Of a stretch of DNA of 64,000 nucleotides, positions 13,448 to 14,265 are shown piece after piece. Made by a program: the position numbers and the translations under genes. Location of the stretch: positions 1 to 64,000 of the forward strand of contig JAFUYQ010000015.1 of NCBI GenBank assembly GCA_017470485.1, given 5' to 3'. The notes below the pieces were generated by a model. That model saw only the letters and a program-made list of their open reading frames with translations, made no database searches and was not told where the DNA came from. Each line of letters opens with the position of its first letter. Position 1 is the stretch's first letter. This DNA comes from Synergistaceae bacterium. GTDB lineage: Bacteria > Synergistota > Synergistia > Synergistales > Aminobacteriaceae.

Positions 13448-13479
13448 TTGACAATCCCCCCCCCCATAGTAGGTATAAT
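13448..13479 (+). promoter_or_regulatory. Sigma-70 promoter with a C10 tract in its spacer
   Basis: A consensus -35 TTGACA (13448-13453) and a consensus -10 TATAAT (13474-13479) are separated by 20 nt, of which ten (13456-13465) are consecutive C. The optimum spacer is 17 nt. Slippage in the C tract would change the spacing and so the promoter strength. It reads toward three small genes starting at 13597. Confidence 0.65.
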
Positions 13480-13596
13480 TGGCTCAAAATTTTTCGGTAC
13501 ATAAACAACAATACGTCTTAATCTTCATTTAATGCGATATAAATACAAAACGCATGGTTAAGCGTGCTATGTATCTATAATTAGGGAGCTGAGAGA

Positions 13597-13776
13597 ATGG
13601 CAAAGACTGCGGAGACTTATGGCAAGGTAGCTGAAACGTTCACGAAAAAGGGCAATACTGAGTGGGCAAAGGCTAAGAGCGGTGAGGGCGATGAGCATTA
13701 CGGGATTGCTAAGGGGTTCTATGCTACTGCTGAAAGAGCAAGGCAGAAGGAACAGGAATTGCGAGCAGAAAGTTAG
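13597..13776 (+). CDS. Small charged protein, 59 residues
   Basis: An unrecognised protein that begins MAKTAETYGKVAETFTKKGN and ends in a charged helix (ATAERARQKEQELRAES). It has no Cys, signal peptide or membrane segment and is likely mostly helical. GGGAG lies about 10 nt before the ATG. It is the first of three tightly spaced small genes, each with its own good ribosome site (TAGGAGG follows its stop codon). The poly-C promoter is 118 bp upstream. I can assign no function. Confidence 0.72.
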   Translation: MAKTAETYGKVAETFTKKGNTEWAKAKSGEGDEHYGIAKGFYATAERARQKEQELRAES

Positions 13777-13790
13777 GAGGTTATGGCGTA

Positions 13791-14057
13791 ATGGGTAAAT
13801 CAACAGCGGATACTGCCGGAGGAGCTACAGCACTTGGAATTGTAGGTGCTATGCTAGGTGGGCCGTTTGGAGCTCTTGCAGGCGCAGCGATAGGAGGACT
13901 GATTGGCGGTAAGAATATCATGAACGTTGTAGTGGGAGCTATTGAGAAAAGATCTGGTGAACTTTCAAGAAATAGCCGTATTCCCGAAGACAAGCGTGAA
14001 AAATTTGCTGAGATGCACGACCGCCTGAAGGAACAGCGTGAACGCAATAGGCATTAA
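13791..14057 (+). CDS. Small glycine-zipper membrane protein, 88 residues
   Basis: The core (residues about 9-42) is a glycine-zipper pair of hydrophobic helices: ALGIVGAMLGGPFGALAGAA then IGGLIGGKNI. The tail is hydrophilic and highly charged (EDKREKFAEMHDRLKEQRER). GxxxG membrane segments of this sort occur in small bacteriocins, holin-like proteins and in outer-membrane glycine-zipper proteins. No signal peptide cleavage site or double-glycine leader is evident. AGGAGG precedes the start. It sits between two other small genes; function unknown. Confidence 0.75.
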   Translation: MGKSTADTAGGATALGIVGAMLGGPFGALAGAAIGGLIGGKNIMNVVVGAIEKRSGELSRNSRIPEDKREKFAEMHDRLKEQRERNRH

Positions 14058-14070
14058 GGAGGTGAAAAAC

Positions 14071-14220
14071 ATGGCAGTCTTCAAAGGCTTTAGGTGCAAA
14101 TACTGCGGCCACCCCGTTAGTTGGAACAGTGATAAAGGCCCTCGTCCGCCTTCACAAGCCAACCAGTTCGACAAGTGTCCGAAATCACCTGATAAAAAGC
14201 ACCATTTCGAAGAAGTATAA
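14071..14220 (+). CDS. Small Cys/His protein with a CxxC knuckle, 49 residues
   Basis: Starts MAVFKGFRCKYCGHPVSWNS after an excellent AAGGAGGTG. CKYCGH and the later DKCPKSPDKKHHF give three Cys and several His that could bind one zinc. The end FEEV is acidic. Similar one-knuckle proteins occur as small regulators or phage-like proteins, but I cannot name the family. It is the third gene of the cassette and is followed directly by a strong terminator shared with mtnA. Confidence 0.72.
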   Translation: MAVFKGFRCKYCGHPVSWNSDKGPRPPSQANQFDKCPKSPDKKHHFEEV

Positions 14221-14231
14221 GCAAACAGCAA

Positions 14232-14265
14232 GCTCCCCTAACCGCTTCAGGGGAGCATAATTTTT
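14232..14265. terminator. Bidirectional terminator between small-gene cassette and mtnA
   Basis: GCTCCCCT and AGGGGAGC form a perfect 8-bp stem with a 9-nt loop, followed by a T run on the plus strand. The mtnA stop codon lies inside the hairpin, so it may serve both converging transcripts. Confidence 0.8.

Follow-up and report, generated by a model that had tools for sequence, protein, structure and literature searches.

A putative genus-specific class of C-tract promoters with spacers near 20 nt in gut Synergistaceae

Spacer length is among the firmest rules of bacterial promoters. In the 64,000-nt stretch of DNA analysed here (the window, which is contig C8 of a 1.95 Mb assembly of 35 contigs that is 86% complete), one site has the TTGACA and TATAAT hexamers of a sigma-70 promoter but a spacer of 20 nt instead of 16–18 nt. 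A homopolymer lies between the −35 and −10 hexamers, as it does in phase-variable promoters of the Neisseria type. Is this promoter detuned by its own C run, or is 20 nt the length at which it works? An earlier note had read the site as perfect TTGACA and TATAAT hexamers with ten C in a 20-nt spacer, and our direct reading agreed exactly. The promoter and the genes behind it are laid out as follows.

13448–13453, + strand: −35 hexamer TTGACA, read from the sequence; TTGACA or TTGACT in all five orthologous promoters
13454–13473, + strand: 20-nt spacer, read from the sequence
13456–13465, + strand: C10 tract within the spacer, preceded by AT and followed by ATAGTAGG, read from the sequence
13473, + strand: G directly 5′ of the −10 hexamer, a position compared across promoter sets
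13474–13479, + strand: −10 hexamer TATAAT, read from the sequence
13480–13596, + strand: 5′ region of 117 nt that separates the −10 hexamer from the first ATG and shows partial conservation across species
13597–13776, + strand: ORF 1, a protein of 59 aa with no assigned family, found in 4 of the 43 genomes of the genus
13791–14057, + strand: ORF 2, an 88-aa small protein with a glycine-rich hydrophobic stretch (by eye)
14071–14220, + strand: ORF 3, a small protein of 49 aa whose CxxC...C pattern resembles a zinc ribbon (by eye)
14232–14260, + strand: terminator-like hairpin at the end of the small-gene operon, which mtnA could use from the opposite side

The 32-mer, with up to three mismatches allowed, occurred once in the window and in none of 100 shuffles, and the promoter tract was the only C tract of at least eight in the window. 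The source assembly held 25 places matching a pattern of C8 or longer, the window tract among them; homopolymer lengths in metagenome assemblies may be off by one. The promoter starts 10 nt past ribE (riboflavin synthase), and mtnA faces the small-gene operon. Relatives identified through the riboflavin synthase belong to the Synergistaceae. Judging by position and conservation, the window promoter would drive the three small genes on the same strand. The 59-aa ORF is likely to be a real gene, since it is conserved and its differences across species fall mostly at third codon positions. All 4 genomes that carry it, out of 43 searched, have a C-rich promoter with a 20-nt spacer ahead of it. The 88-aa protein gave one weak, sub-threshold NCBIfam match and nothing stronger, and the 49-aa protein matched RNA polymerase subunit P below threshold. 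An RNA structure in the 5′ region was considered and set aside, as the alignment fold was weak and comparison with Rfam returned no family. A defence system at the locus was also dismissed, with just two PADLOC matches, both weak.

The 43 Synergistaceae genomes of the genus were searched with a broad pattern that left the spacer free (TTGA, 1–10 nt, C7 or longer, 0–20 nt, TANAAT). This gave 51 matches in 21 of the 43 genomes, corresponding to 49 tracts with two tracts matched twice, compared to 3 matches for a backwards control pattern. In a search of 180 genomes of the order, matches were found in 19 of the 43 genomes of the genus versus 2 of the 137 outside it. The spacers of the 51 matches were 11 nt (1 match), 14 (1), 15 (1), 16 (1), 17 (1), 18 (0), 19 (9), 20 (25), 21 (7), 22 (2), 23 (1), 29 (1) and 31 nt (1), which places 41 of them at 19–21 nt and 2 at 16–18 nt. 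Ordinary TTGACA/TATAAT pairs had spacers of 18 nt in 59 cases, 16 nt in 25, 17 nt in 16 and other lengths in 45 among the 145 matches listed, which came from six of the 43 genomes, the last perhaps in part, after removal of 5 tract-bearing rows from 150. Thus, 100 of the 145 matches listed lay at 16–18 nt and 13 at 19–21 nt. The earlier note had taken 20 nt to be a detuned length from which the loss of two or three C would restore 17–18 nt; the C-tract promoters spoke against this, with a single member at 17 nt, another at 16 nt and none between 17 and 19 nt. A G just before the −10 hexamer was found in 27 of 28 C-tract promoters compared to 39 of 96 ordinary promoters among the matches listed (96 of the 100 pairs at 16–18 nt were used).

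Most of the tracts were long and unbroken, C9–C14. Clustering of 48 downstream proteins, with one site entered double (L029) and with computer-chosen start codons of which some are probably wrong, gave 31 families, and the median spacer was 19–21 nt in 28 of these. Among them were an IIGP-type GTPase, an LRAT-domain family and DUF1232; other families had no Pfam match or had signal-peptide-like starts (by eye), and no common function was evident among the genes behind C-tract promoters. The comparison shows a genus-specific class of C-tract promoters ahead of many unrelated genes.

The window promoter recurs near rib genes in four further species, giving five spacers of 20, 20, 20, 20 and 21 nt. 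The four orthologues read as follows.

G030: AAG-C10-GTTGAAG, spacer 20 nt
G065: AAG-C11-TAATAG, spacer 20 nt
G061: TAGTG-C7-TCCTGACG, tract C7TCC, spacer 20 nt
G010: AAG-C11-ATTGAAG, spacer 21 nt

With one genome for each of the five species, the tracts were C10, C10, C11, C11 and C7TCC, and the flanks differed too. The 59-aa gene lies behind the promoter in 4 of the 5 species; in G010 it is absent, and the promoter and the 5′ region are retained. Which small genes follow this promoter (window 13791–14220; G030, G061, G065 and G010) varies by species, so that the site near the rib genes resembles a variable cassette site.

Across 48 sites with spacers of 14–26 nt, tract length and flank length were negatively correlated (r = −0.64), and when C lengths were shuffled against flank lengths 20,000 times, every shuffle gave a higher variance of the total spacer than that observed. 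In a smaller set of 28 sites that have both TTGAC and TATAAT, among them the outlier of 11 nt, 184 of 20,000 shuffles were equally low. Comparison thus shows that tract and flanks offset each other to maintain a total of 20 nt, which is kept in orthologues and paralogues, although such sites are mutually non-independent. When C runs with one foreign base were searched for, there were 8 matches. In four of them an A or T interrupted a C-rich tract, and the spacers were 20, 20, 19 and 20 nt; the other four contained CCCGCCC, had spacers of 26–30 nt and look like chance. The broken tracts, hardly able to slip, still keep the spacing, and this argues that 20 nt is the working length. A promoter that is OFF at 20 nt and ON at 17–18 nt is unlikely because 20 nt is held by compensation, in the orthologues and in the broken tracts. 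Conservation would put the working spacer about 2 nt above the 18 nt that ordinary promoters have in these genomes. This suggests that the C run is a functional part of the promoter and not an off-state spacer, and that the promoter is probably switchable.

The same length was seen among paralogues. One genome (G033) has four near-identical copies of such a promoter, each with a spacer of 20 nt, and two of the copies (L259 and L260) share an identical 48-nt block ahead of unrelated genes. The block starts two bases 5′ of TTGAC and ends at GTCAA, and may be a promoter cassette that moves or is copied. GTCAA was found 3′ of the −10 hexamer in 12 of 28 perfect sites, and the window copy lacks it. 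The four paralogues at exactly 20 nt could mean that the tract is not very labile.

How might a promoter work at 20 nt? The reading that we prefer, to which we give about an even chance, is that these are sigma-70-type promoters that work at 20 ± 1 nt, tuned or switched by slippage, with the C tract itself enabling the 20-nt spacing. Under this reading, 20 ± 1 nt would be the active spacer length, and the C tract would let RNA polymerase accept it, for example as an A-like G/C tract that is shorter per base pair. A 20-nt spacer with such a tract would then span about the length of 18 nt. Gain or loss of C by slippage would shift the promoter off its optimum, acting as a switch or a rheostat around 20 nt, and this switching would be set in a genus already rich in C/G tracts in surface-structure genes. 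The rise per base pair is 2.8 Å in A-like DNA and 3.4 Å in B-DNA. For 10–12 C, an A-like rise predicts a slope of 0.18 nt per C on a base of 18 nt, as worked out before the fit. The total spacer rose weakly with tract length, with a slope of 0.15 ± 0.07 and an intercept of 18.4, in a regression that left out 6 of the 51 matches (an identical duplicate and those with spacers of 11, 14, 15, 29 and 31 nt) and took in 5 interrupted tracts. Incomplete compensation of slippage would also give such a slope. By arithmetic, an A-like tract would compensate twist less well than length, since a 20-nt spacer containing one would still have roughly the turn of 19.5 nt of B-DNA. The geometry idea for a 20-nt optimum is plausible and unproven. 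A more speculative form of it, which we hold tentatively and consider doubtful, is that a mutable C tract doubles as a structural element and that a TTGAC...C tract...TATAAT...GTCAA module, some 48 nt long, spreads to new genes within one gut genus. The A-like tract would here shorten the spacer by about 2 bp, the optimum would be set jointly by tract and total length, and every slippage step would retune the promoter around that joint optimum.

Two places in the genus bear on how labile the tracts are. Contig C24 of the source assembly is identical to contig C23 over 7298 of 7298 nt compared, from the C tract on (L284 12703–20000, and L285); the tract at this shared locus is C15 in contig C24, which ends at the tract, and C8 in contig C23. 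The pair may reflect a population in which both lengths truly occur, or else the assembly went wrong at the tract. LRAT-domain genes of two species (L256 and L264) have C-tract promoters with spacers of 23 and 15 nt, and these are possible OFF states. A G-tract version of the search gave 38 matches in 22 of the 43 genomes with broadly distributed spacers, 14 of the 38 at 19–21 nt. One genome (G026, L286–L292) has seven intergenic promoters of the form TTGACA-N7/8-G8 to G13-TAAAAT, each of them preceding an ORF. Their flanks are nearly constant, and their spacers measure 15, 15, 16, 16, 18, 19 and 21 nt; several of these ORFs have secreted-like starts (by eye). This family looks like ordinary, uncompensated phase-variable promoters, which the C-tract class does not appear to resemble.

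The G-tract family is also what a Neisseria-type switch would look like, in which 20 nt is OFF or weak and the loss of two or three C gives the 17–18 nt optimum and turns the genes ON. The layout of the window site, the peak of ordinary promoters of the genus at 16–18 nt (among the matches listed), the many C/G tracts, and the spread from 15 to 21 nt with nearly constant flanks in G026 all fit such a switch. However, the C-tract spacers cluster symmetrically at 20 nt and do not drift among OFF lengths, and both flank compensation and broken tracts at 19–20 nt are hard to explain if 20 nt is OFF; we therefore consider this switch unlikely. The likeness that the earlier note had drawn to phase-variable promoters of Neisseria stands in part, for the homopolymer between perfect hexamers and the C/G tracts of the genus, but not for the preferred spacer of 17–18 nt, with 41 of 51 at 19–21 nt. 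A constant 20-nt spacer would also be expected if a regulator were involved. MerR-family promoters have spacers of 19–20 nt, where MerR-family activators realign the hexamers. A MerR-like protein could bind the overlong spacer or its flanks, with the inverted repeat TTGAC...GTCAA as its site. The spacer length lies within the 19–20 nt of such promoters, positions beyond the hexamers are conserved (the G before −10 in 27 of 28), and GTCAA follows −10 in 12 of 28 sites and bounds the 48-nt block of two unrelated genes. Against this, the C run has no dyad symmetry as MerR operators need, and the GTCAA arm is missing in 16 of the 28 sites and in the window site, which makes such a regulator quite unlikely. 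No inverted repeat was seen by eye in the window spacer, and in the members that have TTGAC/GTCAA arms, these are located beyond the spacer.

The broken tracts that hold their spacing and the four paralogues at exactly 20 nt would equally suit a fixed structural variant, a C-rich spacer needed for geometry or strength without switching. Most tracts, however, are unbroken C9–C14, the form most prone to slippage; the LRAT-domain family has 23 versus 15 nt in two species, and tract lengths of C8 and C15 differ elsewhere in the source assembly, so that a fixed variant seems rather improbable. Chance or an assembly artefact is the least credible explanation and highly improbable, even though the genomes are metagenome-assembled and homopolymers are error-prone in them. 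A chance origin was rejected on the 0 of 100 shuffles, the contrast between 51 matches (21 genomes) and 3 for the control, and the distribution limited to the genus, and orthologues keep the promoter.

Returning to the preferred reading of C-tract promoters that work at 20 ± 1 nt, several known systems share some of the features. The preferred spacer of porA is 17–18 nt. The C-tract class resembles porA, opc and fetA of Neisseria in having a homopolymer in the −35/−10 region; at these genes, poly-G or poly-C lies between or at the −35 and −10 elements and its length sets transcription (PMC5320596, PMC3899988, PMC3447861). There the tract varies between isolates, whereas in the C-tract class a total of 20 nt is held across species and genes. 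Unlike these Neisseria promoters, the C-tract class has a spacer about 2 nt above the ordinary optimum of its genus. For FetA, a strong spacer of 17 nt was reported for an engineered promoter (PMC4577077), and this counts against a C-tract optimum of 20 nt. In Bordetella pertussis, the length of a C stretch in the fim promoters affects transcription (PMC1891110). The C tract in the promoter is a shared feature, but the fim stretch is there described as lying between the activator region and −10 and as activator-dependent, whereas the C-tract class mostly has TTGAC before the tract. In Helicobacter pylori, a T tract at sabA alters local DNA structure and tunes the promoter output in steps (PMC4081817). 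This rheostat is similar in that a tract acts on DNA structure and tunes output; the T tract is described there as adjoining −35 and aligning UP-like elements, in contrast to a tract of C within the spacer. MerR-family promoters share the overlong spacer between good hexamers but carry a dyad operator in it, which the C-tract class lacks. Among the titles listed by a search of mostly open-access literature, none described phase variation in Synergistetes, Fretibacterium or rumen Synergistaceae. Dozens of natural C-tract promoters at 20 nt beside ordinary ones at 16–18 nt would amount to a natural experiment on the shape of spacer DNA, in which a mutable repeat may belong to the geometry of the promoter beyond a role as a ruler. 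They also indicate that uncultured gut Synergistaceae vary on a large scale by means of such tracts.

Tracts were also found within genes. Of the 25 pattern places in the source assembly, several are G tracts in coding sequence. Coding tracts in this genome, G032 and G062 lie in genes for an amino-acid permease, a DegT aminotransferase, acyltransferase 3 and glycosyltransferases, and further in genes for a SIS-domain protein, an AlgX-like protein and lipoprotein-like products (by eye). The coding G tracts (L163, L166, L180, L181, L186, L187, L196, L205, L207 and L222) are often near the end of the ORF. Loci of this kind, with ORFs that end near the tract as if frame-shifted, are candidates for coding phase variation. 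A dispersed repeat carrying the tract was considered and rejected as an explanation; many C tracts of the genus are followed by a GTAATTTTACG-like sequence, and in G032 and G062 many of these are coding G tracts, placed within ORFs or at their ends. These GTAATTTTACG-flanked tracts seem to form a second, coding class. On the C strand, the GTAATTTTACG-like sequence after the coding tracts (G032, G017, G062 and G061) resembles the GTATAATTACG of the promoter.
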